Shown here in pieces: positions 50,580-61,421 of a stretch of 64,000 nt of DNA. Under the pieces are notes generated by a model. That model did not search any database. It was not told where the DNA came from and saw only the letters and a list, made by a program, of their open reading frames with translations. The stretch's first letter is position 1. The number at the start of each line of letters is the position of its first letter. The DNA is from Gimesia alba (GTDB lineage: Bacteria; Planctomycetota; Planctomycetia; Planctomycetales; Planctomycetaceae), in assembly GCF_007744675.1 (NCBI RefSeq), contig NZ_CP036269.1, positions 7,075,917 through 7,139,916 on the forward strand, given 5' to 3'. A program made the position numbers and the translations under genes.

Positions 50580-52028
50580 TTATTCCGGGGTGGATACTTT
50601 CAACGGCGGTCGGTAGATCCGGAAGGCTTTGATCGGCAGTTTGCCTTTGGCCTTTGGCGTGAGGGTTAGACTGTGGTCGCCGTTTTTCATGCCCTGCGCG
50701 AGCATCGTGGAATATTCTTTGGCAGGGTCTGTGACCGTCGGCGATTCCCAGACGTCCACAAACAGAGGTTTGGTTTCCCAGGTGACCTTATAATCTTTCG
50801 GCAGACTCTGTTTGCGATAACGCAGGGACCAGTTCACCATCCACATCCGGGGTTCAATCACCACGCGACCGGAGTTGGAAACAAAACGTGTTTTGTGATC
50901 GCCCGTGCCGTCGGGGCCCGTTTGGGAACCGCTGACTTCATACCGCAACACATCCTTTTCCAGATCGCATTCGAGGATGCGCGCGGTCCAGGTTTCCACC
51001 TGCAGCGGGGCCCGATGATCGATGCGATTGAAAGCCGGACGTCCCGCGACCGGCGTCGGGCTGGGACGCGTGTGATAATAGAGCTCCGGGAACCGCGAAG
51101 GAGATTTCCCGTCCAGCAGCACGGCTGCTTGGGCCGCGTCTCCCGGAGCCGCGATCACGTCGATGCGGTTGCCCTTAAACTTCAGCGTCAGAGAGCCGTC
51201 GTCTTTGTGCTGGACACGCGGGTCATTTACGGGGACATCGGTAACGAGGTCTTTCCATTTGTCATCAGGAAAACCGGCATCATAACGCAGATGCGGCTTG
51301 ACCAGTTCGGCGATGAGGAAGTTCCCTAATTTGTTCGGGTGCACCGTGTCGCGGAGCGTGTCTTTCACCACCAGGTTATTTTTTTTCAGATAGCCCTGCA
51401 TACCGGTCCGCACGTCGGCCACTTCACAATCGAGTTCCCGCCCCAGACGATGGTAGAGATCGGAAATCGCCTGATCCTGCGCGTCTTTGGCCAGCACGTC
51501 GGGATGTTGCGGGTCGCCGTCCGGCGGCACCGTCTTCGGCCACCGCAGATTACTGGTCCAGAGCAAAACCTCAGCGGTCGTCCGCTGACGGATGCGGCGG
51601 ATGATTTTTTCCTGGTGACCGCTTTCCACCCCGGCCCAGACATGAAAGATCACCAGATCCGGGTAGAAAGGATACAGATCAAATTCGGCGGTGTTGATCA
51701 GCACCGGCCCTCCGTAACCGCCAATGGCCCGATTTTCGATTTCAAGGTCGGCGTGCGGAAACCGCTGACGCAGGTCATCCGCCACATCCTGCCACCACGG
51801 ATTGCGGGTCACAGACTGACCATAAAACAGAATCCGCACCCGATTCCGTTTCTCCGGCGTACTGGTCGCCAGCAACGTCATCGTCCGCTGAATATTCGCA
51901 CCGAAGGTGGCCGGATCGCCGGCGGGTTTCACCGGAGCGAATTTTGCGGTTTGCTGAGCCAACAGGTCAGGACTGCAGGCGACCAGGGCCAGAGACAGAA
52001 TCAACGTGGACCGTAACAGCTGCATCAT
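50580..52028 (-). CDS. SGNH/GDSL-like hydrolase, exported
   Basis: 482 residues from ATG 52028 (GAGGA five bases upstream; a longer frame reaches 52094). A signal or lipoprotein-type N-terminus (LILSLALVAC) leads to the hydrolase part. RILFYGQSVTRNPWW holds the block I serine region (GQS), NRAIGGYGG the block II glycines, LVIFHVWAG a block III-like segment, and DTVHPNKLGNFLIA block V with the aspartate and histidine. The last 170 residues are a beta-rich domain. It should be a periplasmic or surface esterase, perhaps on acetylated polysaccharide; substrate inferred only. Confidence 0.75.
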   Translation of the reverse strand: MMQLLRSTLILSLALVACSPDLLAQQTAKFAPVKPAGDPATFGANIQRTMTLLATSTPEKRNRVRILFYGQSVTRNPWWQDVADDLRQRFPHADLEIENRAIGGYGGPVLINTAEFDLYPFYPDLVIFHVWAGVESGHQEKIIRRIRQRTTAEVLLWTSNLRWPKTVPPDGDPQHPDVLAKDAQDQAISDLYHRLGRELDCEVADVRTGMQGYLKKNNLVVKDTLRDTVHPNKLGNFLIAELVKPHLRYDAGFPDDKWKDLVTDVPVNDPRVQHKDDGSLTLKFKGNRIDVIAAPGDAAQAAVLLDGKSPSRFPELYYHTRPSPTPVAGRPAFNRIDHRAPLQVETWTARILECDLEKDVLRYEVSGSQTGPDGTGDHKTRFVSNSGRVVIEPRMWMVNWSLRYRKQSLPKDYKVTWETKPLFVDVWESPTVTDPAKEYSTMLAQGMKNGDHSLTLTPKAKGKLPIKAFRIYRPPLKVSTPE

Positions 52029-52094
52029 AGGGTTCCTCAGGCGGAGTCGATTAACAGGGGGCAGGCAGAGACGCACGGGGCAACGCGTCGCCAC

Positions 52095-52491
52095 GTGGTT
52101 TCTGACTGGGGGAATTATTGTGTCTGTGGTTCTATGAGAATCGAAATTGGGGCGGGTGGCAACTGTGGGGAGGGAATTTGGGGTGGGGATTTAATGAACC
52201 GATGTGATAGGTTTAGTGTCAGCGTTTGCAGACACTACGGTTACACCCACACTCTGCTATAAATCTTTATTTTAATCAGGTCGAAAACAAATAGAAATAT
52301 CAGGATTGATATTTCCCAACGTCTCAATGGTGACTTCCTATAAAACAACAATTTGAAACACAGAAACCCCGACGACATAAGAGAATAGATAGATTTGATA
52401 AAGGAGTTTTGTGACTTTACTCCTTCAGTGAGTTACAATTGTTTGTAGGATTGGGCTCAAAACGGGTGACAGAATACTCAGGTAAAAAATA
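52095..52491. other. Intergenic region at the left edge of the accessory island
   Basis: About 400 bases between divergent genes; base composition turns markedly A+T-rich from about 52250. No Xre-type antitoxin open frame is visible before the RES gene. Confidence 0.5.
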
Positions 52492-53421
52492 ATGATTCCG
52501 AGAGATAAAAATCCTGAAAGCTGGGCAAATGAGTTGGGAGATCGCATTAATGGTTGCGAGATTTGCCAATACCATGAAGCTATGAATAGTTATATGTCAC
52601 TTGGTGAATTTCTTGAAGAAAATTACGTTCCAGCGGAATTATGTGAAGATACAACACACTTTCTCTCCTGTAGTTGTGGAAATAAACTCGACCTATGTAC
52701 TTTGATTGTTATCGACTCGCCTGAGATCCAAGTCGATGAGTATGCCGGAGAGAGATTCGGTTATTGGGCTGCTGAAAATAATCAGCGAATCAACGAATTT
52801 GTTAACGTCTTAAAACACTCTCCAGAGATTGCAACCAAGCATGATGTTGGTAAAGAAATATTCAAGCAGCTTGAATTATTTCCCACATGTGAAGTATCAG
52901 GACATTGGTGGCGAGCACAATCTATTCCTGAATGTGATTGTCCTCCAATAGTTAAACGACTCTCTCCACGAACAGAACCATCCCAGAGTAACGGGAGATT
53001 TAATAGCCCAGGCCAACCTACATTTTACTTAGCATCGAACCGAGAGTCTGCTGTTGCAGAAGCAGAGAAGTATCAAAAGCTAGGTGAGGAGATCTGGGTT
53101 CTCCAATTCGACCTTACAAAAATTGATACGATTGTGGATCTAGTAGCTCCTTCATTGCGAACGGATTCGTTTCGAAAATCATGGATACCAGATTTGTTTG
53201 CTGGATTACTATGGTGCGATGGGCTGGTCCAGCAAAATAAAAAAGGAAATCCAGAGCCATATTTGCTTACTCAGTTTATTGCAAAAACAGCGATTTCCCA
53301 TGGAATTAAGGGGGTCAAAGTAAATAGTCAGTTACACTCTGGTATTAATCTAATTTTGTTTGGCTGGGATCTGAATAATATGCAACCAATTGGTCAACCA
53401 GAATACTTCAAAGGGTTATAG
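52492..53421 (+). CDS. RES-domain protein (NAD+-consuming toxin-like)
   Basis: 309 residues. The C-terminal half (about 138-295) has the RES family marks: Arg141 in WWRAQS, GRFNSPGQPTFYLASN (168-183), Glu190 in SAVAEAEKY, and VNSQLHSG with Ser279 or Ser283. In studied members the Arg, Glu and Ser are the catalytic trio of an ADP-ribosyltransferase-like fold that destroys NAD+. The N-terminal 70 residues have six cysteines (22, 25, 51, 60, 62, 69) as in CEIC and CSCG, a possible zinc-binding unit before the toxin part, and it lacks an Xre partner in front. Codon use is A+T-rich compared with most of the window. Start at ATG preceded by CAGGTAAAAAATA. Confidence 0.75.
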   Translation: MIPRDKNPESWANELGDRINGCEICQYHEAMNSYMSLGEFLEENYVPAELCEDTTHFLSCSCGNKLDLCTLIVIDSPEIQVDEYAGERFGYWAAENNQRINEFVNVLKHSPEIATKHDVGKEIFKQLELFPTCEVSGHWWRAQSIPECDCPPIVKRLSPRTEPSQSNGRFNSPGQPTFYLASNRESAVAEAEKYQKLGEEIWVLQFDLTKIDTIVDLVAPSLRTDSFRKSWIPDLFAGLLWCDGLVQQNKKGNPEPYLLTQFIAKTAISHGIKGVKVNSQLHSGINLILFGWDLNNMQPIGQPEYFKGL

Positions 53422-53635
53422 TAAGGATGAAATAGAAGATTTCGGATGCAATAAAGTCCAGCTACATTTCTTCCTTCTGAGAAACACATTCGCAATCCCA
53501 TAAGATAAAGTTAGACTGCAATGCAGGATTTTCAGGGAGTTAGAACCCATCGATACTAAAACTAATGCCGCTAATCATCTCAATGCGATAAGTGCGATTC
53601 ATCTTAGACACGCGCACGCAATTGGGCGCCTTCAG

Positions 53636-54346
53636 TTGCTTGCTGAAGTTGCTCGTTTGGGACGTGATTACATACCTGTTCTAAAGACGATCGCTAAGGA
53701 GAAGCCATCCACCAGTCCTCTTGAGAAGTACGCTGAAGAGCAGTCGCCGAACTTCTACGATCTCTATGCTTTGGTTGCAATCCGACTTTGGTCAATCCTT
53801 GAAGCTTATATCCGTGATATTTCCTGTCACGTAATTGAACACGTTCCTGAAGTCCGTCAGCGTAAAGAATTCTCTAAACTGAAAGCTCCTATCGTTGATT
53901 TCCTTAACACGACGAACCAAGAGCAAGCAGATTATCTTTATGAATTAATTGAGGCAAATTGTACTGGGGCTCTTAAGTCTGGTGTAGGACGTTTTGAAGC
54001 TGTATTGTCTTCTCTTGGCTATGATGGACCAGTGGACGATACGGTTCGGGATGAACTCTATCATCTAAGTCGTTTACGAAATTGCATTGCTCACAACGAT
54101 GGTATTGTTGATAAAAAACTTATAGGAGGATGTCCTTGGTGGAAGGGAAACGAAGGCACTCGTGTGGGGATTACTGCTGCAATGGCTCGTAAATTTTTGT
54201 ATGCAGTGTCTTGGTATATGTTGGAAGTTGAACGTCGTGCATTACCTTCTAATTTTGATCATTTAGATAAACTTGAAAAAAAACAAACAGAATATCTTCA
54301 AGAACTTAATAGCGAATACATACCTGGGAGATTCCCATTTAGCTAA
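53636..54346 (+). CDS. HEPN-like protein, start codon unclear
   Basis: 236 residues if read from TTG 53636, the only standard start in frame. The frame stays open back to 53504, giving plausible protein (DTKTNAANHLNAISAIHLRH) before it. An AGGGAG precedes an ATC at 53549 at normal spacing, so a lost ATG (ATG to ATC) or a small frameshift (the ATG at 53521 runs out of frame) may explain the missing start. The C-terminal helix bundle has LRNCIAHNDGIVD, with Arg148-Asn149 and His153, the R-X4-H motif of HEPN ribonucleases of the MAE_28990/RiboL-PSP type. Similar in codon use to the RES gene 215 bases upstream; the two may work together. Confidence 0.6.
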   Translation: MLAEVARLGRDYIPVLKTIAKEKPSTSPLEKYAEEQSPNFYDLYALVAIRLWSILEAYIRDISCHVIEHVPEVRQRKEFSKLKAPIVDFLNTTNQEQADYLYELIEANCTGALKSGVGRFEAVLSSLGYDGPVDDTVRDELYHLSRLRNCIAHNDGIVDKKLIGGCPWWKGNEGTRVGITAAMARKFLYAVSWYMLEVERRALPSNFDHLDKLEKKQTEYLQELNSEYIPGRFPFS

Positions 54347-54447
54347 CGACCGAAGAATAAAATGAACCCACTTTAGTTTCAGATTAATTTGCTATTTATG
54401 GATGTAAAACCAAAATAATAGATTATGGGACCTTGAGTTTATCCTTC

Positions 54448-54927
54448 TCAATAACCGATTAGTAATAATTTATATGGCAACGCAAATCGAGAATGTCCGA
54501 ACAATGCCTCTGCAACATTCCTTGTATTGAAGAAATCACTGCTTGAAGTCTCTCGACCACCAGATTTATATTTGTAACTAAGTGGGACTGCGAGTGACAA
54601 AATATCTACTTGAACCATGACCATGGCTTGAACTAGATCACGATAAACAGCATTTCCCATCCAAGCTCTCCCGGCTTCCACTTCAAGACCACATCGCCAA
54701 CCAGCATGATATGCATCTATCTCATACTTTAGAGTTGGTTGTCCTTGCTCACCATAAAACACAGGACGTTCAATCTTTTGATCTCGAGACTTACCACTCT
54801 CAACTTCAAAGCCAATATCAATCAAATCGGGACGTATTTTTGTGAGTACTTCGTCACTAGTGAGTCCTTTTTTTAAATTGACCGTCGATATTTCTGGTAA
54901 GTGTTTCTCAAAGGCACTAGAGGGCAT
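54448..54927 (-). pseudogene. PD-(D/E)XK nuclease-like gene, 3' part cut off by IS5-type element
   Basis: This frame gives 159 residues from an ATG at 54927 that lies inside the IS end, so the first three residues are not native. Removing the element 54920-55855 and one TA target copy joins it in frame to a start at GTG 55925 (AAGAG six bases upstream), a 179-residue protein of 180 codons. The native part includes YEIDAYHAGWRCGLEVEAGRAW, an aspartate and Glu-X-Glu spacing that fits a PD-(D/E)XK nuclease core (BglII-like is my impression), then WMGNAVYRDLVQAMVMVQVD. It would be the last gene of the methyltransferase-AlkB operon on this strand, ending convergent with the HEPN-like gene. Confidence 0.6.
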
Positions 54928-54928
54928 C

Positions 54929-55330
54929 TCAAAACCTTTTTAATAGTGTAAATAAACACCCAAGAATTACAAAGCTTTCGTAGAGGTAATCGTGATATTC
55001 CCAGCGCGTGACAATGCGACGATAGTTGTGGAGCCAGGCAATACTGCGTTCCACAATCCAACGTCGTTTGAAGCGTGGAAGCTTTCGACCATCTTGCGTC
55101 GGCGGTTTGACTCTCGATTTTCGATGCGGGCAGATCAGATCGATATTCTTTTCCATCAGCCGTTTGCGCAACGAGTCCGAATCGGCGGCTTTGTCATAAA
55201 CAAGTCGCTCGGGTTGTCGATTTTGCAATGTGATTTTTTCAAGCAGCGGTTCGATCAGCTTGACTTCGCTACGACGGGCCGATTCTGTGTCGATCGCCAC
55301 AGGTGTCCCGTGACGATCGACAAAAATCAT
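54929..55330 (-). CDS. IS5-family transposase, second frame
   Basis: 133 residues by its own ATG, but the true protein is most likely a fusion with the first frame by -1 frameshifting at the A7 run (RC of 55378-55384); in that frame it continues as RRGKGTKVMIFVDRHGTPVAID. The catalytic residues of the DDE nuclease are visible: VYDKAADSD and WIVERSIAWLHN, with the fixed phrase RHGTPVAIDT. It ends GCLFTLLKRF just inside the element. Confidence 0.85.
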   Translation of the reverse strand: MIFVDRHGTPVAIDTESARRSEVKLIEPLLEKITLQNRQPERLVYDKAADSDSLRKRLMEKNIDLICPHRKSRVKPPTQDGRKLPRFKRRWIVERSIAWLHNYRRIVTRWEYHDYLYESFVILGCLFTLLKRF

Positions 55331-55773
55331 GACCTTTGTGCCTTTGCCACGACGAGTCGGGCCAACTCTTCTACCCCTTTTTTTGCCGAGGCAAAAGTGC
55401 CATCAGCAAAGGTTTCCGAGAAATCAATCTGGCCAGCATCATCCATTCGTTCCAAGATGATTTGCCAGGCAGATAAGAGCCGCCCTTCGATCGTCCATTG
55501 CTGGAAACGTCGATGGCACGTCGCTTTTGAGGGATACTCTCTTGGTAAATCTTTCCATCGTGCTCCTGTCACCAAAATCCAGAGAATGCCTTCCAGGCAA
55601 TCTCGTGGATGGGCTTTTGGACGTCCTCCCTTTTTGGAAGGGGGAGTCCAGGGAAACAGTTTTGCGACTAAAGACCATTGTTTATCGGTCAAAACGACCG
55701 GGCGTTCCGTCCTGGACGCTGTTTTTGTGGAAACCCGTTTTCGTTTGGGCCACCAGACCAGCGTCATATACAT
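55327..55773 (-). CDS. IS5-family transposase, first frame
   Basis: 148 residues starting MYMTLVWWPKRK, with the IS5/IS427 N-terminal domain (LTDKQWSLVAKLFPWTPPS, then GGRPKAHPRDCLEGILWIL and FQQWTIEGRLL). It ends in an alternative frame after DGTFASAKK; the first catalytic Asp is in FADGTFAS. The A7 run at 55378-55384 (as T7 on the + strand) precedes a switch into the second frame (GPTRRGKGTK), consistent with programmed -1 frameshifting. Confidence 0.85.
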   Translation of the reverse strand: MYMTLVWWPKRKRVSTKTASRTERPVVLTDKQWSLVAKLFPWTPPSKKGGRPKAHPRDCLEGILWILVTGARWKDLPREYPSKATCHRRFQQWTIEGRLLSAWQIILERMDDAGQIDFSETFADGTFASAKKGVEELARLVVAKAQRS

Positions 55774-55857
55774 AAGAAATTCTCCTTTCAGGAGAACACT
55801 TCATGCAAAAGACGCGCCAAACCGTTCACTTTTTTTGACGTTATGAGACAACCTCTA

Positions 55858-55925
55858 ATGATTTGAGTTACAAATCTGGGTGGTGGTTCCGTACGAGGAT
55901 AGAAGTGATATTTAATGTTTTCCAC
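55858..55925 (-). pseudogene. 5' fragment of the nuclease-like gene
   Basis: Starts at GTG 55925 (AAGAG six bases before) and encodes MENIKYHFYPRTEPPPRF then VTQII before meeting the IS5-type element. It joins in frame with 54448-54919. The gap from the AlkB stop (56023) to this GTG is 97 bases. Confidence 0.6.
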
Positions 55926-56022
55926 GGTATGCTCTTAAAGACTTTTCTGATCCAATGACCCGAAAAGTATTTTTGTTTGTATGATTTCTTGCTTACTTAC
56001 TTAGACTCTTCGTGTGCATAAT

Positions 56023-56664
56023 CTAACCATCTACCTCTTTTCTATTTCGCTCATCCAATATCACTTTCCTGAATGTCAGAGATACGCGACGCGCCCTCTT
56101 CCGTCCTCTATCGGTTAGACGTGGCCTAATCCCGTGTTTCCAGGCGTAACGAGAACAACCTGTAAAAACCAGACAACTTCCTAATTCAAGATCAACTTTT
56201 TTCGTGATCCCTGTTGAGATCTCGCTCAGTTCCATTTCATAAACTGAACCAAGACTTATGGTAGCAATTTCATCTTGAAAACAAGGTTCACAATCTACAT
56301 GAGGAGCAATTCCTTGCCCTGGTCTATATTCATTGATAATTAATTGATCTGGTTTCTTAGATACTAAGCCAGTTAAAACGAGTTTCTCTGCAATCTTCGC
56401 TGCAAATGGTGGCAATGGTCCTACATACATAGATGGATCTACACGACGAGCCTTATAGTCATATCTGTAGCCATAATGTTGAACTCGACGTTTAAGGTCC
56501 CCTAGCCATGTATGACAATCGAGCGTCTCAAGACAAATTATCTGTTCTGATGGCGCGAGAAAACTTTCGTAATAAATCAAACCCGGGACATTTAGATAGT
56601 TGCGATGAATTTGATTTGATAATTTGTCATAATCTGAAAATAGTAGTAGTTGCTTATTCTTCAT
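56023..56664 (-). CDS. AlkB-like 2OG-Fe(II) dioxygenase
   Basis: 213 residues from ATG 56664; a TTG one codon earlier is less likely. The iron ligands are visible as HVD (His122, Asp124) and His177 in RYAWKHGI, with Arg192/193 and RRVSLTFR as the 2-oxoglutarate contact and the NEYRPGQGIAPH lead-in. The phrase RRVQHYGYRYDYKARRV is reminiscent of ALKBH8-like proteins, which act on tRNA wobble bases; DNA/RNA alkyl repair is the other common role. It begins three bases after the stop of the methyltransferase fragment, and is the only intact gene of the three-gene cassette. A+T-rich codons. Confidence 0.8.
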   Translation of the reverse strand: MKNKQLLLFSDYDKLSNQIHRNYLNVPGLIYYESFLAPSEQIICLETLDCHTWLGDLKRRVQHYGYRYDYKARRVDPSMYVGPLPPFAAKIAEKLVLTGLVSKKPDQLIINEYRPGQGIAPHVDCEPCFQDEIATISLGSVYEMELSEISTGITKKVDLELGSCLVFTGCSRYAWKHGIRPRLTDRGRKRARRVSLTFRKVILDERNRKEVDG

Positions 56665-56667
56665 CAA

Positions 56668-57269
56668 TTAAGTCATCTCAAATAGTTCTCTGTAGAATGT
56701 CTCATCCTTCTTAGTAGCTAGTAGTTTTCTACGAGTGTAGTAACTAATAGTGACCTTCTGCAAATCTGATATAAATTCTTCATTTGATTGCTCAAATCCA
56801 AGTAATTTGAGAAACTCAAAATAACGCTTACTATGAGTCAAGTATTGAGAATTAGTGTAACTTATAAACACACGTGGTTGATTTTTACCTTTTACAATTT
56901 TGAGGATTTTCTCTGCATACGTTTTTAATAAGTCGTTATTGAGAAATTTACTACCAAAGAAAAAGGAGAAATTGAATATTATCGCCGCTTTTTTAGGAAA
57001 GTTCTCAGGTAGTTTTTCTATACTTTTTGTTAAATAAATTTTAAGTATGTTTTGATGGCTAGTTTTCTCGTTAAGTGCATTAAGTAAAGTTTTGCCTTTT
57101 TTTCGCATACTGTTTGATAAATCTATGCCAACGTATCTAAATGGTGTTTCCTTAAATAATTCAGCAAAAGCGAGTCCCGATGTACCAGGCCCACATCCAA
57201 TATCTACAAAGTACACATTGGAATCAGTAAACGCCTTTGACAAATATTTCTTCCACATTCGTAAATTAG
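56668..57269 (-). pseudogene. SAM methyltransferase gene, 3' part after IS3 insertion
   Basis: The remaining frame gives 196 residues from a chance ATG 57258. It has the SAM-binding motif I VDIGCGPGTSGLAFAELF and motif II YVGIDLSNSM, with later FNFSFFFGSK and FISYTNSQYLTHSKRYFEF. Deleting the IS3 element and one TTAG copy joins it in frame to 58557-58849, making a 296-residue class I methyltransferase (297 codons) starting MSKRKSFLDITQKWS. The stop TAA lies three bases before the AlkB ATG, so they were one transcript. The substrate is unknown. The N-terminal domain is not of a type I can name. Confidence 0.7.
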
Positions 57270-57347
57270 TGATCTAGCCCCCTTAACCGCGTCCACCTGA
57301 AATGTGGTAACATTTCGATTTTGGGCCTTGTTTAGGGAGAGTGAGAA

Positions 57348-57626
57348 ATGCCGAGAAAACGATTTACTGTTGAGCAGATTATTCAGAACCTTCGTGAAGC
57401 GGAAGTCGAACTGGCTCATGGTAAGACGATTGGCCTGGTCTGCAAACAACTGGGAATCACCGATCAGACTTACTACCGCTGGCGTAAGGAATACGGTGGA
57501 ATCCGTACCGACCAGGCCAAACGACTCAAAGACCTGGAAAAGGAAAATGCACGCTTAAAGCGGCTGCTGGCAGATGCGGAACTGGATAAGGCAATCTTGA
57601 AAGAAGCCGCTTCGGGAAACTTTTGA
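57348..57626 (+). CDS. IS3-family transposase OrfA
   Basis: 92 residues: a helix-turn-helix (TVEQIIQNLREAEVELAHGK, then VCKQLGITDQTYYRWRKEYGG) followed by a leucine-zipper-like helix (LKDLEKENARLKRLLADAEL). The stop overlaps OrfB by four bases, in the -1 frame, as IS3 elements need for the fused OrfAB transposase. Confidence 0.9.
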   Translation: MPRKRFTVEQIIQNLREAEVELAHGKTIGLVCKQLGITDQTYYRWRKEYGGIRTDQAKRLKDLEKENARLKRLLADAELDKAILKEAASGNF

Positions 57627-58522
57627 GCCCGGTCAAGAGACGTCAGGCTGTTAGTTATGTTCGTAATACCCTGGGGCCTGATATCGTTTCAGAACGCCGG
57701 GCCTGCCGCGTGTTGGGGCAACCTCGTTCTACTCAGAGAAGGGAGCCTTATATACCTGATGACGAACCTCGACTGGTAAAACGAATGATTGAACTGGCAA
57801 CACAGTATGGCCGTTATGGTTATCGGACAGTCTGGGGGATACTTTGTCTGGAAGGGTGGAAAGTGAATCACAAACGAATTGAACGACTCTGGAGACGTGA
57901 AGGACTGAAAGTGCCTAAGAAACAGCCAAAACGGAGGCGACTGTGGTTGAATGATGGTTCCTGTGTTCGACTGCGTCCTCGTTACAAAGACCATGTGTGG
58001 AGCTATGACTTCGTGCAGGACCGGACTTCTGATGGCCGGAGTTTTCGGATGCTGGTGATCATGGATGAATACAGTCGAGAATGTCTGTCGATTGATGTCG
58101 CTCGCAGACTCAACAGTGAAGACGTTTTGGAGCGACTTAGCGACCTGTTCATTCTGCGTGGAACCCCGGCTTACATTCGCAGTGACAACGGAGCCGAGTT
58201 CACGGCAAAGAAAGTGCGGGAGTGGCTAAAACGTGTCGATGTGAAGACTCTGTTTATTAAGCCGGGAAGTCCGTGGGAGAATGGATATGTGGAATCATTC
58301 AATGGAACCTTGCGGGACCAACTGCTGAATGGAGAAATGTTTGATACTTTGCTGGAGGCGAAGGTGTTGATCGAACGATGGAGAAAAGAATACAATACGA
58401 TCAGGCCGCATAGTTCGCTGGGCTATCAGCCACCGGCCCCGGAAACAATTGCCCCGTATTTGCCAGCTTCCGCTACGCTCCAACTGGCAAATACGGACAC
58501 TGATAACAACTTAAAATTGTAA
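57623..58522 (+). CDS. IS3-family transposase OrfB (DDE integrase core)
   Basis: 299 residues. The DDE triad lies in WSYDFVQDRTSDG, in IRSDNGAEFTAKKVREWL and in YVESFNGTLRDQLLNGE. The IS3 phrases KQPKRRRLWLND and WRKEYNTIRPHSSLGYQPPAP are intact. It would be expressed as the second half of the OrfAB fusion. It looks intact and may still move. Confidence 0.9.
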   Translation: MSPVKRRQAVSYVRNTLGPDIVSERRACRVLGQPRSTQRREPYIPDDEPRLVKRMIELATQYGRYGYRTVWGILCLEGWKVNHKRIERLWRREGLKVPKKQPKRRRLWLNDGSCVRLRPRYKDHVWSYDFVQDRTSDGRSFRMLVIMDEYSRECLSIDVARRLNSEDVLERLSDLFILRGTPAYIRSDNGAEFTAKKVREWLKRVDVKTLFIKPGSPWENGYVESFNGTLRDQLLNGEMFDTLLEAKVLIERWRKEYNTIRPHSSLGYQPPAPETIAPYLPASATLQLANTDTDNNLKL

Positions 58523-58556
58523 CATTACAACTGGTACCGTCCGTAGGGGCAGATCA

Positions 58557-58849
58557 TTAGCGTATGTCGACCAAAAATGGCCCCTCATATGCAGGAAGCA
58601 GTAAAGTAGTACTTTATCATCTGCGGATATTATTTGATCACCTTCGCTGTAACCTTCAGTAAAATCGGCGCGACCAAACTCAGTAATTTCACTTCGGACT
58701 TTGTTAAATTGAAAACCTAATGGTCTCATATTGTTGTCTTCAAAAACACTCCTATCACAAATAGGCAGATGAACAATATCATTGAAAACTGAATCCATTG
58801 ATACTGACCATTTTTGTGTAATGTCCAAGAATGATTTTCGTTTTGACAT
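58557..58849 (-). pseudogene. 5' fragment of the SAM methyltransferase gene
   Basis: From ATG 58849 (MSKRKSFLDITQKWS) reading leftward into the IS3 element at WSTYAN. After joining, the sequence continues WSTYANLRMWKKYLSKAF. The fragment includes EDNNMRPLGFQFNKVRSEI and ADDKVLLYCFLHMRGHFW. An upstream frame to 58912 exists but has no better start. Confidence 0.65.
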
Positions 58850-59161
58850 AAGTCTTTTAACCATATAATTAACTGAGAATAACGGCTTGAAAAACGTCAA
58901 ATGTAAAACCAAGCCTCCCCCCTACAGGTACAAACATACGCACAAACCCATATGTATACCACTGCTAATTCGCCATTCAAACAATAATTGATTGAATTCA
59001 TCAGATGGAGCGCTGAGATCCCACCATCGTAGAGGCGATAGGAAACGATTGACTTTCCCGCAGAGGTCAATTCTTTCACACCGTTGAGCAAGCCCAAAAA
59101 AACCACCCAGCGAAACTAGGATAGAATTTTGAGGTAGCTAATTTTTTTGGAAGTACACCTC
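58850..59161. other. Intergenic region between the interrupted cassette and the propeller gene
   Basis: About 310 bases; nothing recognisable. The right edge of the accessory island is probably here. Confidence 0.4.
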
Positions 59162-61189
59162 TCAGGGCTTCGGTTTTCGTTCCAGCAACACCCCCTGATA
59201 TCCCGCGGGGATCAGGAGTTGGCTGTTCCAGAAGCGGCAGGCACCGGGGTGGCCTTTGAGATCATATTCGTCGACGGGTTTGGGGTGTTGGAGGTCGGTG
59301 ATGTCGAAGAGTTCTACACGTTGATCGGGGCGGCGGGAGAGGGCCAGTTGTTTGCCGTTGGTGCTGGGGCGGCCGCGGAGACGATGGCCGGGGACTGTGA
59401 TGGCGGGCAGCTGGCTGACTTCGCGCTGGTCGCCGGGGTTTAACAGTTGCAGCTTGCCGTGTTTGACGAGCAGCAGTTGGTCGCCCAGCAGACAGGCACC
59501 GTCAGTAAAGCTGTAACGCCGCTCGTCGGGTGTGTTGCCCTGGTAAACGGGCTTCTCGCCGGAGACGTCGTACCAGGCTGGTCCGCTGCGGTGCCAGTAG
59601 GCGACCAGGTAACGGCCCCCCAACAGTTCGGGGACCAGCTGATCGCCGTAGAACAGGCCGACCTGCGAATCCTTCAAGACCACACGGGGGTGGGCCGGAT
59701 CCTGGAGGTCGGCAATCTCGACGGCGGAGCTGCCCCAGTGGTATAAGGCGAACCGCCCGGGGGCGGGACAGGCGACCTGTTTCACATTGCGGTTCTTCAA
59801 CCTGAGGCGACCGATTTCGGTCAGTTTCAATTCGGGGCCGATGTCGTAGATGGCGAGCCCGGCGTCGTTCTCGGCGGCGTAGAGTCGCGAACCGGAGACG
59901 GCCAGGTGCATGACCTCGCCTTTACCTTTGGTCACGCTGACCGACTCCAGCGTTTTGCCGAGCTGCACCGCATGAATTCCGGCACTGCCGCAGGCGGCCC
60001 AGGCGATGTCGCCCACGACGGTCGCAGAACGGACCTGACCGCCGGGCTGGTAGGTGAGGAAACGGGGATCGCCGGCCTGGTCTGAAGCGGCTTTCAGTTC
60101 GGGTGCCCGGTCCTGTTCGGGGACGACCGGAGTGGCGAGACCGGGCGCGGGGACGACGTAGAGTCCGGTGAAGATGCCGGCGGCGTAGATCACTCCCTTG
60201 CCGAGGGCGATGCCGCCGACGGGGTCGGGCGTGTCGTCACTCTTTAACCGGGGCGGCAGGACAGCGTGGGCGACGATCCGTGGTTGTTTCATGTCGTGAA
60301 TGTTGACGACGAAGAGTCCGTTCCAGGTATCAGCGACAACACAGTGATCGCCGGCGACGCGGGCGGTCCACATGTCGTTCGTGATGTGATAGGAGGCCGG
60401 GAACTTGACGCGGGAGACGAAGGTCGGCTTTTCGGGATCGGCGACATTGAAGATTTCGAGTCCGTGCCCTTTGCCGTCATCGCGGCTCGCCCGCGAATGG
60501 TGTCCGGTGGCGGCGAAGCAATAGTTTCCGCGGAGGCAGCCGCCGTCGCCAAAACCGTCGAGAGGGGCTTCGCTGATGATCTTAGGCTGACGCGGGTTGC
60601 GGACGTCAGCGATGACGAGTTTCCGGGGCGCCCAGTCGCCGATATAGAGGATGCCGTCGCGGGACCAGCAGGACTGGGCTTCGCCCGTTTTCAGCATGCT
60701 GACATGTTGCGGGGCGCGGGGGTTGGAGACGTCAATGATTTCAACGCCGTACTGCCGCGTGGCGACGAAGGCCAGAGAGCCGGAGACACAGATGCCGGTG
60801 GCCATTTCAACGGTGTCGTAGTGGCTCAGCAGTTGTGGATTGCTGGCATCGGAAACATCGACGAGCCAGAGTCCATCCTGGCGGGCGGTGATATAGGCGA
60901 TGTTGTCTTTGATCACGAGCTGGCGGGTATTGCCCAGGCCGGAGAGTTCGCCGAGCGGGACCGGTTTTTCGGGCTGGGAGATGTCGAGCACATGGAACTT
61001 GCCGCGCCCGGTGGCATAGAGGCGGTTGCCTGCCACAGCGACGGCCTGGCAGGCGCCGATCCCGTTGACCTTTTGGGGAGTCAGCGCGGGGCCGTAGGTT
61101 TCTGTTTGGGGTGCAGCGCGAAGGGAGTTGGGGGCGGTGATGACCAGGAGGCAGATGAGGAGTGCGAATTTCAGGAGGGGTGTGTTCAT
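59162..61189 (-). CDS. Exported LVIVP-repeat beta-propeller protein
   Basis: 675 residues from ATG 61189; the frame continues further upstream through residues that do not look like protein. A signal peptide (LLKFALLICLLVITAPNSLRAA) precedes many LVIVP-type repeats, each a unit such as AYITARQDGLWLVDVSDASNPQ and LAFVATRQYGVEIIDVSNPRAP, or LYIGDWAPRKLVIADVRNPRQPK. They fold as blades of one or two propellers. The repeats are well kept to about residue 400, then weaker. Such proteins are outer-surface or periplasmic, of unknown binding role; no catalytic site is evident. G+C-rich codons, unlike the island beside it. Confidence 0.8.
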   Translation of the reverse strand: MNTPLLKFALLICLLVITAPNSLRAAPQTETYGPALTPQKVNGIGACQAVAVAGNRLYATGRGKFHVLDISQPEKPVPLGELSGLGNTRQLVIKDNIAYITARQDGLWLVDVSDASNPQLLSHYDTVEMATGICVSGSLAFVATRQYGVEIIDVSNPRAPQHVSMLKTGEAQSCWSRDGILYIGDWAPRKLVIADVRNPRQPKIISEAPLDGFGDGGCLRGNYCFAATGHHSRASRDDGKGHGLEIFNVADPEKPTFVSRVKFPASYHITNDMWTARVAGDHCVVADTWNGLFVVNIHDMKQPRIVAHAVLPPRLKSDDTPDPVGGIALGKGVIYAAGIFTGLYVVPAPGLATPVVPEQDRAPELKAASDQAGDPRFLTYQPGGQVRSATVVGDIAWAACGSAGIHAVQLGKTLESVSVTKGKGEVMHLAVSGSRLYAAENDAGLAIYDIGPELKLTEIGRLRLKNRNVKQVACPAPGRFALYHWGSSAVEIADLQDPAHPRVVLKDSQVGLFYGDQLVPELLGGRYLVAYWHRSGPAWYDVSGEKPVYQGNTPDERRYSFTDGACLLGDQLLLVKHGKLQLLNPGDQREVSQLPAITVPGHRLRGRPSTNGKQLALSRRPDQRVELFDITDLQHPKPVDEYDLKGHPGACRFWNSQLLIPAGYQGVLLERKPKP

Positions 61190-61400
61190 GTGAGCGAGCT
61201 TTGCGTTTTTTGTGACGGAGGATGGTTTATGAATTTGATTATGTGGGGGTGGGGGGCTGATGTCAATTTGTTTGGGGCGTGGGTCAGCTGAGCACTGTCG
61301 GGCAAGCCGACAGATGGCACCCGGGACTTTGTCTGGAGGGTTGGGGTTTTCGAAGGAGCGTTCGAAGGAGTACTCTGACGGTTTCCTGTTCGCTGCGCTC

Positions 61401-61421
61401 ACCCCGAATTGCATTCGGGGC
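61401..61421. repeat. Palindromic module CCCCGAAT...ATTCGGGG
   Basis: Close relative of the palindrome at 19135-19155, again preceded by the word TTCGCTGCGCTC. Confidence 0.5.

Follow-up and report, generated by a model that had tools for sequence, protein, structure and literature searches.

Gene organization and insertion sequences

The window, a 64,000-nucleotide stretch of the Gimesia alba chromosome, contains three neighbouring genes on the minus strand: a methyltransferase gene from 58849 to 56668, an AlkB gene from 56664 to 56023, and a third gene from 55925 to 54448. The AlkB ATG lies three bases past the methyltransferase stop, and a gap of 97 bases separates AlkB from the GTG start of the third gene. 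The features of the interval are as follows.

52095..59161: variable low-GC cargo interval between a GDSL-like gene (50580-52094) and an LVIVD gene (59162-61414)
52492..53421, plus strand: RES-domain protein (PF08808, 1.4e-12), convergently oriented and within the low-GC insert
53636..54346, plus strand: function-unassigned protein, weakly HEPN_RiboL-PSP-like (PF18735, 0.052, below cut-off); frame open from 53552
54448..54919, minus strand: 3' part of the third gene, predicted BamHI/BglII-like PD-(D/E)XK protein with D-x10-E-x-E; 400 of 470 bases match an intact paralog
54920..55855, minus strand: IS5-family insertion sequence, 936 bp, TA target duplication, partial transposase matches
55856..55925, minus strand: 5' portion of the third gene, with GTG start, 23 codons and 1 base; 56 of 70 bases match the intact paralog; empty site in frame
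56023..56664, minus strand: intact AlkB 2-oxoglutarate dioxygenase, ALKBH8-type by sequence, 213 aa (PF13532, 6.8e-21)
56668..57269, minus strand: SAM-binding 3' portion of the methyltransferase gene; frame open from ATG 57258, 196 aa
57270..58556, plus strand: IS3-family insertion sequence, 1287 bp, transposase ORFs at 57348-57626 and 57623-58522, target site CTAA duplicated
58557..58849, minus strand: 5' portion of the methyltransferase gene, 97 codons and 2 bases; open frame, aligned with the N-terminal part of the 292-aa methyltransferases of Picosynechococcus; empty site in frame

The coordinates and leftward order given in an earlier note on this DNA are borne out, as are the two insertions with target duplications that it described. 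The elements belong to the IS3 and IS5 families, names that reflect partial transposase matches below NCBIfam cut-offs (for IS3, from the first transposase ORF only). One other full copy of the IS3 element is listed in the genome at 100% (C1:6846724-6848011), and 16 other near-full-length copies of the IS5 element are listed at 100%. Joining the flanks with a single target copy gives 891 bases for the methyltransferase and 540 for the third gene, both in frame with the sole stop terminal, in agreement with the 297 and 180 codons proposed previously. A junction displaced by 1 or 2 bases yields 11 and 25 stops in the methyltransferase and 7 and 16 in the third gene. Homologues also span both junctions, namely an intact third-gene paralog in the same chromosome and the intact methyltransferases of Picosynechococcus. 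The C-terminal part of the methyltransferase is still an open frame with its SAM motif, and that of the third gene (159 aa, with an ATG from the IS end at 54927) is open with its nuclease motif; the two genes are therefore likely, rather than certainly, turned off by the insertions.

A variable cargo hotspot

The GDSL-like and LVIVD flanks are common to eight sister genomes, while the contents between them largely differ, and the interval is a cargo hotspot. Known defence genes, either SngA-C (Shango) or LmuA-B (Lamassu), are present in two of the eight sister intervals, the PADLOC scan having covered 8 cargo proteins of 4 sisters and the Pfam scan 10 proteins of 6. One stretch of L118 reads N. 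Because this site is used by known defence systems, a defence role for the genes at the hotspot is plausible, and the methyltransferase-AlkB pair may have a role against phages. Inspection of the window's insert by eye found no kinase, CRISPR, or reverse transcriptase genes. A structured RNA of known family or a tRNA at the site was rejected, none being detected at the thresholds used. With Shango, Lamassu, and uncharacterised cargo, the hotspot is a further place to seek new systems.

The methyltransferase and AlkB

Among solved structures, the best relative of the window AlkB is ALKBH8 (3thp, 2.5e-28), while the best E. coli AlkB chain scores 2.4e-6. An alignment shows the HxD, distal H, and R-R residues of the AlkB-type motif, and on these sequence grounds the protein is an ALKBH8-type dioxygenase. 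The ALKBH8 alternative raised in the earlier note thus fits the AlkB sequence best. The animal form combines an RRM, a zinc finger, and a Trm9-like methyltransferase in one polypeptide, whereas the window protein has the AlkB domain only. Of 392 genomes in this phylum, 31 have an AlkB relative of any closeness. In two genomes from the same genus (L060, L061) an ALKBH8-type AlkB stands without the methyltransferase, and when 12 close AlkB loci were searched with profiles in the fetched DNA, 8 of them gave no such methyltransferase.

The 56668..57269 piece of the methyltransferase matches Pfam Methyltransf_25 just under cut-off (1.1e-5), with no DNA-methyltransferase family among its Pfam matches. 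In PADLOC it matches C3a159 "methyl transferase" (1.5e-9), a model that we take to come from a type III CRISPR accessory set, and mad2 (6.7e-8), presumably the DNA-methyltransferase part of the MADS system. The mad2 match may be generic, since a hotspot methyltransferase of a different kind also matches mad2 (3.6e-12). The sole PHROG match, annotated "tRNA methyltransferase," is weak (4.2e-5). Neither piece contains a PP pair, so that (D/N/S)PP(Y/F), the motif by which amino-type DNA methyltransferases are recognised, is absent. A single-sequence model is of low confidence (pLDDT 58.9) and its structural matches are unspecific, with methyltransferases and dehydrogenases among them; of the PDB sequence searches with the methyltransferase relatives, one gave no match and the other short matches only.

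A tblastn search with the methyltransferase piece found three loci in Picosynechococcus, a cyanobacterium in common laboratory use: plasmids pAQ6 and pAQ5 of PCC 7002 and one plasmid of PCC 7003. In each the methyltransferase directly precedes AlkB, and both window pieces align in order with the intact 292-aa relatives, which are mutually close (89 and 92% to the first copy). Adjacent and in the same order in two unrelated lineages, the methyltransferase and AlkB are a recurring two-gene module. AlkB trees are weakly resolved and leave the paired AlkBs ungrouped; holding these together, as common descent would require, is neither supported nor rejected (AU p 0.464 and 0.381), and in the 18-row tree a starred branch unites the Picosynechococcus rows with an unpaired, long-branched row. 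Within the same phylum, the methyltransferase family occurs in this genome and has no relative in the 391 others. Searches of 388 genomes from a second phylum (E limit 1e-6), 196 from a third, and 6 single genomes, all run without a positive control, did not detect it. In a fourth phylum (183 genomes) there was a single weak match, to the region of the SAM motif, and none of full length; the power of the three phylum searches is unclear. A search of 50,697 phage records with the window AlkB, the methyltransferase piece, and the third protein gave no match, and viral-contig scans with the first two and with alignment A1 found no relatives. A further scan, with the Picosynechococcus AlkB as query, turned up a single AlkB that has phage-structural-looking genes next to it (L071); it is unpaired, and a phage-carried pair was rejected on these results.

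The third gene

The PD-(D/E)XK core that the earlier note proposed to look for in the third protein appears in the predicted structure of its 83% identical relative L014 (pLDDT 86.7). Foldseek matches of this model include OkrAI, BglII, BstYI, and BamHI, and the eight best all belong to this group; query TM-scores range from 0.41 to 0.56, and E falls below 0.001 for the first match alone. D91, E102, and E104 are invariant in a 16-row family alignment (D-x10-E-x-E); ExE is a BamHI-like active-site pattern. The third protein is thus predicted to have a BamHI/BglII-like PD-(D/E)XK nuclease fold. Four intact relatives have no match in Pfam, and a PDB sequence search with the family gave no match to the BamHI/BglII group. 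Of the features of a type II restriction-modification system, the fold and catalytic residues are present by prediction, and no cognate DNA methyltransferase is recognised next to the nuclease gene, although the methyltransferase piece has its mad2 match.

At 21 further third-family loci (15 from a contig search and 6 from same-phylum genomes, with 6.9-16.5 kb fetched per locus and several cut by contig ends), profile searches detected no member of the AlkB or methyltransferase families; the AlkB profile detected known AlkBs at 8 loci, and the methyltransferase profile had no positive control among the searched loci. The third family occurs in 6 of the 392 genomes, and the genome lists of any two of the three families overlap only in this genome. 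Similarity between the intact paralog and the window stops at the gene ends. Given the absence of the pair families at the other loci and this gene-limited similarity, the third gene is probably independent of the pair. DNA methyltransferase genes of the D12 and N6_N4 families lie near the nuclease at no fewer than four loci (L009, L017, L018, L022). An AAA_15 protein precedes the paralog and another follows L016; an ATPase-nuclease pair was rejected because inspection by eye and P-loop motif showed none beside most other loci.

Interpretation

The reading that we favour, at a probability of about 0.5, is that two units lie side by side at the hotspot, a methyltransferase-ALKBH8-type module and a single-gene nuclease. 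Since the AlkB is ALKBH8-type, our best guess for the pair is a split module for RNA modification that resembles ALKBH8. A class I SAM methyltransferase would most likely write a methyl group on a nucleotide of what is presumed to be RNA, the favoured guess being a tRNA anticodon-loop uridine derivative. The Fe(II)/2-oxoglutarate dioxygenase would then hydroxylate or oxidise the methylated product, in an order suggested by analogy with the two eukaryotic ALKBH8 domains acting in sequence. The nuclease, of predicted fold, would spread alone, and recent insertions would have cost it and the methyltransferase their function. The conserved order on the Picosynechococcus plasmids, the collinear alignment with intact relatives, the proximity of AlkB to ALKBH8, the weak PHROG match, the lack of the amino-methyltransferase motif, the isolation of the third gene, and the defence genes of the sisters are consistent with two units, and PMC4051686, in the parts consulted, favours RNA modification for canonical bacterial ALKBH8s, whose substrate is unidentified there. 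Against this stand the restriction of the pair to two lineages, one comprising three close copies, the absence of the methyltransferase family from the other genomes searched, the ungrouped AlkBs, the AlkB loci without the methyltransferase, and the mad2 match.

The same parts of PMC4051686 also report that every ALKBH8 tested repaired DNA in vitro to some extent, with etheno adducts preferred, and that tRNA-Gly(UCC) was unchanged in an Agrobacterium mutant; both findings weigh against RNA modification. The repair activity and the unpaired AlkBs of the same genus would suit an AlkB that repairs alkylation damage in DNA or RNA, with the methyltransferase a chance neighbour or metabolic enzyme; the gap of three bases in the window and an order shared with a second lineage count against this, as does the lack of any known repair gene noticed beside the pair on incidental inspection, and we consider it unlikely. 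The pair could instead be an accessory of larger defence systems, modifying or repairing RNA that a type III CRISPR or retron-like effector has damaged. Upstream of the pair in Picosynechococcus lie either RAMP CRISPR genes or reverse transcriptase, a PADLOC model exists for the methyltransferase, and the pair is preceded there by a kinase-WYL gene related to RNA-repair polynucleotide kinases (solved chains nearest to its kinase domain 4gp7/4jst, presumably the Pnkp kinase of Clostridium thermocellum; more weakly Pnkp1, 4xrp). Pnkp1-Rnl-Hen1 RNA repair is tied to immunity in the consulted part of PMC4411300. This accessory role is nevertheless improbable: by eye, the window's insert has no kinase, CRISPR, or reverse transcriptase gene, and the methyltransferase accompanies a full-length kinase-WYL match in only three of 12 plasmid records, all Picosynechococcus (four of the other nine were inspected), so that kinase-WYL as an obligatory third partner was rejected.

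The earlier note had envisaged all three genes as one modification-restriction system, the nuclease reading an oxidised or alkylated mark left by the methyltransferase and AlkB. Proteins of the three kinds are present, that of the nuclease by predicted fold, and the shared strand, short gaps, mad2 match, the defence genes that two sisters carry at this site, and DNA methyltransferase genes near nuclease relatives would all agree with such a system. The partners, though, were not detected in the DNA fetched for any of the 21 other third-family loci; the paralog shares the gene alone, neither methyltransferase piece has the amino-type motif of DNA methyltransferases, and the methyltransferases beside nuclease relatives are of other families. 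The single system was accordingly rejected and is given very little weight.

As an extension of the two-unit reading, a mobile split ALKBH8 might remodel host RNA, for example at an anticodon-loop uridine, so that it escapes nucleases triggered by phage, CRISPR, or retrons. This is a long shot, and if true it would give the bacterial ALKBH8 substrate a role in immunity. Among the matches listed in a literature search on AlkB together with methyltransferases and type III CRISPR or phage defence, titles and abstract openings held nothing on the pair, and one jumbo-phage paper combined all terms. The pair ties the ALKBH8 substrate question to defence islands, and a methyltransferase partner in the same order in Picosynechococcus offers a direct route to that substrate.

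Comparison with known systems

The third protein resembles the type II endonucleases BamHI, BglII, BstYI, and OkrAI in its best structural matches and conserved D-x10-E-x-E, but differs in its modest TM-scores, in the lack of Pfam and PDB sequence matches for its family, and in having no recognised cognate DNA methyltransferase in the window insert. The PADLOC C3a159 model (PDLC01079) matches the Picosynechococcus relative (4.9e-136) as well as the window piece, but covers the methyltransferase alone. Canonical bacterial ALKBH8s, such as that of Roseobacter denitrificans (PMC4051686, parts consulted), fall into the AlkB subclass of the window protein; plasmid pTB4 of R. denitrificans encodes an AlkB, possibly the protein tested there, that is 45.5% identical to the window AlkB but is preceded by a gene for a 153-aa protein, with no such methyltransferase found at that locus. 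Eukaryotic ALKBH8, a tRNA wobble-uridine methyltransferase and hydroxylase, differs in that the window has two separate genes without RRM or zinc finger and a methyltransferase whose likeness to Trm9 is putative; it is alike in the pairing of a methyltransferase with AlkB and in having the AlkB domain nearest by sequence.

The gene block and its insertion sequences

The window lies on a single 7.77-Mb chromosome and contains a block of three minus-strand genes, two of them split by different insertion sequences. The features are as follows.

Features of the block and its flanks, in window coordinates
59162-61414: LVIVD-repeat gene, flank of the block
58849-56668, minus strand: methyltransferase gene, split by an IS3-family element
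57270-58556: IS3-family element inside the methyltransferase gene, CTAA duplicated
56664-56023, minus strand: AlkB-family gene
55925-54448, minus strand: third gene, split by an IS5-family element
54920-55855: IS5-family element inside the third gene, TA duplicated
50580-52094: GDSL-like gene (named by reading the sequence), the other flank

When the flanks are rejoined with a single target copy, the methyltransferase and third genes are restored to in-frame reading frames of 297 and 180 codons with one terminal stop, while displacing the junctions by 1 or 2 bases gives 7 to 25 stops; the earlier description of these two interruptions thus holds. Both insertions look recent because identical copies occur elsewhere in the genome (one more full copy of the IS3 element and 16 more near-full-length copies of the IS5 element, all at 100%). 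The end of the IS5-family element also contributes an in-frame ATG to the third gene (window 54448-54927); translation from it could still yield a protein that misses no more than about 23 N-terminal residues.

Relatives of the joined proteins span both junctions. The third protein has an intact 179-aa paralog on the same chromosome (C1:958096-958635, equivalent to L065:7097-7636), which the two window pieces match back to back (56/70 and 400/470 bases). The methyltransferase pieces align in order, at 28% and 26% identity, with intact 292-aa methyltransferases from three Picosynechococcus plasmids, the C-terminal piece at 5e-10 to 2e-9. Both junctions are, as judged from these alignments, real gene junctions.

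The third gene

Neither the window piece of the third protein (Pfam, NCBIfam, PADLOC) nor four intact relatives (Pfam, PADLOC) matched any model. A PD-(D/E)XK core, proposed from the sequence, is supported by the predicted structure, Foldseek matches and conserved residues. The prediction for the family (13 rows, relative L014 first) had a pLDDT of 86.7, and the best eight Foldseek matches to the L014 model were all OkrAI, BglII, BstYI or BamHI chains (E 3.8e-4 to 0.21, the first alone below 0.001; query TM 0.41-0.56; rmsd 5.5-8). D91, E102 and E104 do not vary across 16 aligned rows, giving a D-x10-E-x-E pattern that resembles that of BamHI.

The earlier note had joined this gene to its two neighbors in one modification-restriction system, and on that point the comparisons disagree with it. 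Twenty-one other loci of the third family were collected, 15 from 123 candidate genome-contig stretches and six from the 6 of 392 same-phylum genomes with a match, one of these being the paralog. When the fetched DNA (6.9-16.5 kb for each locus, truncated at a contig end in some cases) was translated in all six frames and searched with AlkB and methyltransferase family profiles, none of the 21 loci gave a match to either family; the AlkB profile was positive at eight control loci with known AlkBs, and the methyltransferase profile had no control in the set. The resemblance of the window gene to its paralog does not extend past the gene itself: ungapped flank identities are 0.36 and 0.31, and blastn gives no match between flanks. 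Of the 392 genomes, 6 have the third family, 31 have AlkB relatives, close or distant, and 1 has the methyltransferase; the only genome common to any two of these lists (apparently drawn from one set) is Gimesia alba itself. Because of these three results, the third gene is best read, from its distribution, as a separate unit.

Third-family neighbors vary by locus; among ten chosen neighbors scanned, D12 or N6_N4 DNA methyltransferases were found near the gene at four loci (L009, L017, L018, L022). At the paralog locus (L065:5267-7636) an AAA_15 ATPase gene, whose matches are GajA-, AriA- and AbiLi-like, precedes the intact gene by 51 bases; the two may form an ATPase-nuclease pair.

The methyltransferase-AlkB pair

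Part of the proposed unit of writer, AlkB and nuclease does recur: the methyltransferase lies directly upstream of AlkB on pAQ6 and pAQ5 of Picosynechococcus PCC 7002 and on a plasmid of PCC 7003. In PCC 7002 the genes of both plasmid copies are annotated at full length. Recurrence of the pair, as suggested by these gene orders, rests on two lineages. A Picosynechococcus methyltransferase searched against 72,556 plasmids matched only its three known records, and searches of 388, 196 and 183 genomes (the phyla of Hyphomicrobiales, Chloroflexi and Myxococcales records; the first two without a positive control) gave one weak motif match and none of full length. The methyltransferase was not found at 8 of 12 close AlkB loci, two of these in the same genus.

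Each Picosynechococcus pair is preceded by a gene whose protein combines an AAA_33 P-loop with a WYL-like part (in PCC 7003 by similarity). A RAMP-type CRISPR gene is upstream at two of the three loci and a reverse transcriptase at the other, its best PADLOC models being RT-Protease_XI and RT-TIR_XII, which we read as retron types. The chains nearest to the kinase part are polynucleotide kinases, Pnkp1 included (chain 4gp7 is Clostridium thermocellum Pnkp). Full-length matches to the kinase-WYL protein occur on 12 plasmid records, and since only three, all Picosynechococcus, hold the methyltransferase (four of the other nine were inspected), the gene occurs without the pair and was set aside as a module member. 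Two cyanobacterial plasmids (L057:879-4953 and L127:2994-7034) share a gene order in which a reverse transcriptase is followed by a ~260-300-aa protein and then by a kinase-WYL protein with a P-loop; the arrangement looks like an uncharacterised retron-like unit.

The AlkB protein matches PF13532 (6.8e-21) and keeps the catalytic HxD, distal H and R-R residues. In AlkB trees the window protein is unplaced; the AU test does not reject a constraint that unites the four paired AlkBs (p 0.464 for 11 rows, 0.381 for 9), and in an 18-row tree the Picosynechococcus rows join an unpaired, long-branched row. An ALKBH8-type AlkB also occurs on a viral contig (L071:1443-2057) among genes that read as phage portal, protease and capsid genes.

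The methyltransferase is probably of class I fold, given weak Pfam matches, all under cut-offs, and a low-confidence single-sequence model. In the defence library it scores best with PADLOC C3a159 'methyl transferase' (1.5e-9; 4.9e-136 for a Picosynechococcus relative), followed by mad2 (6.7e-8), a DNA-methyltransferase component.

By analogy with a split ALKBH8, the best guess is that the methyltransferase would act first, methylating an RNA nucleotide that the AlkB enzyme would then oxidise. Two units, with the pair modifying RNA, have a probability of about 0.5; within this reading, the claim that the third gene stands apart is the better supported. Should the mad2 match reflect more than the general SAM fold, it would weigh against RNA being the substrate. 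In a sister genome's copy of the interval (L121:527-1372), another class I methyltransferase gene, encoding 281 aa, lies beside Lamassu genes and also matches mad2. PMC4051686 points the same way: it describes bacterial ALKBH8s as lacking the methyltransferase domain and not efficiently repairing canonical AlkB substrates, and it favors RNA modification, proposing a substrate resembling mcm5U, not yet identified there. Damage repair by AlkB remains a rival because the same paper reports DNA repair in vitro and an unchanged tRNA-Gly(UCC) in an Agrobacterium mutant.

A cargo site for defence systems

Genes within the interval between the flanks (window 52095-59161) have 32-41% GC, compared with 58-63% in the flanking genes. 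Among 17 genomes of the genus searched, Gimesia alba included, eight others also have both flanks in closely related form, separated by 2.5 to 12.2 kb (L118-L125). The contents of these eight intervals are mostly unlike, with some sharing a gene (L122/L125 and L121/L123, by eye), and none matches the methyltransferase, AlkB, third, RES or HEPN-like proteins. PADLOC recognised Shango genes in L120 (SngA-C; 1.8e-66, 1.2e-169, 2.6e-244) and Lamassu genes in L121 (LmuA-B; 4e-75, 2.9e-202). L118 has a DUF4062 protein and another interval a sub-threshold SIR2-like protein (Pfam); in the remaining four nothing was recognised, two of their proteins having been scanned against Pfam alone. Such a pattern is that of a site which takes up defence systems as cargo, and it makes a defence role for the window genes plausible by association. 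The same low-GC insert also encodes, on the plus strand, a RES-domain protein and a weakly HEPN-like one (window 52492-54346).

Comparison with known systems

Each kind of protein is already known; the coupling of a methyltransferase gene to an ALKBH8-type gene in bacteria, which did not turn up among the literature matches listed, appears to be the new part. By predicted fold, using the model of L014, the third protein is nearest to OkrAI, BglII, BstYI and BamHI. By sequence, ALKBH8 is far ahead among solved structures as the match to AlkB (2.5e-28; next 9.4e-9; best E. coli AlkB chain 2.4e-6), although here the methyltransferase and AlkB are separate genes.
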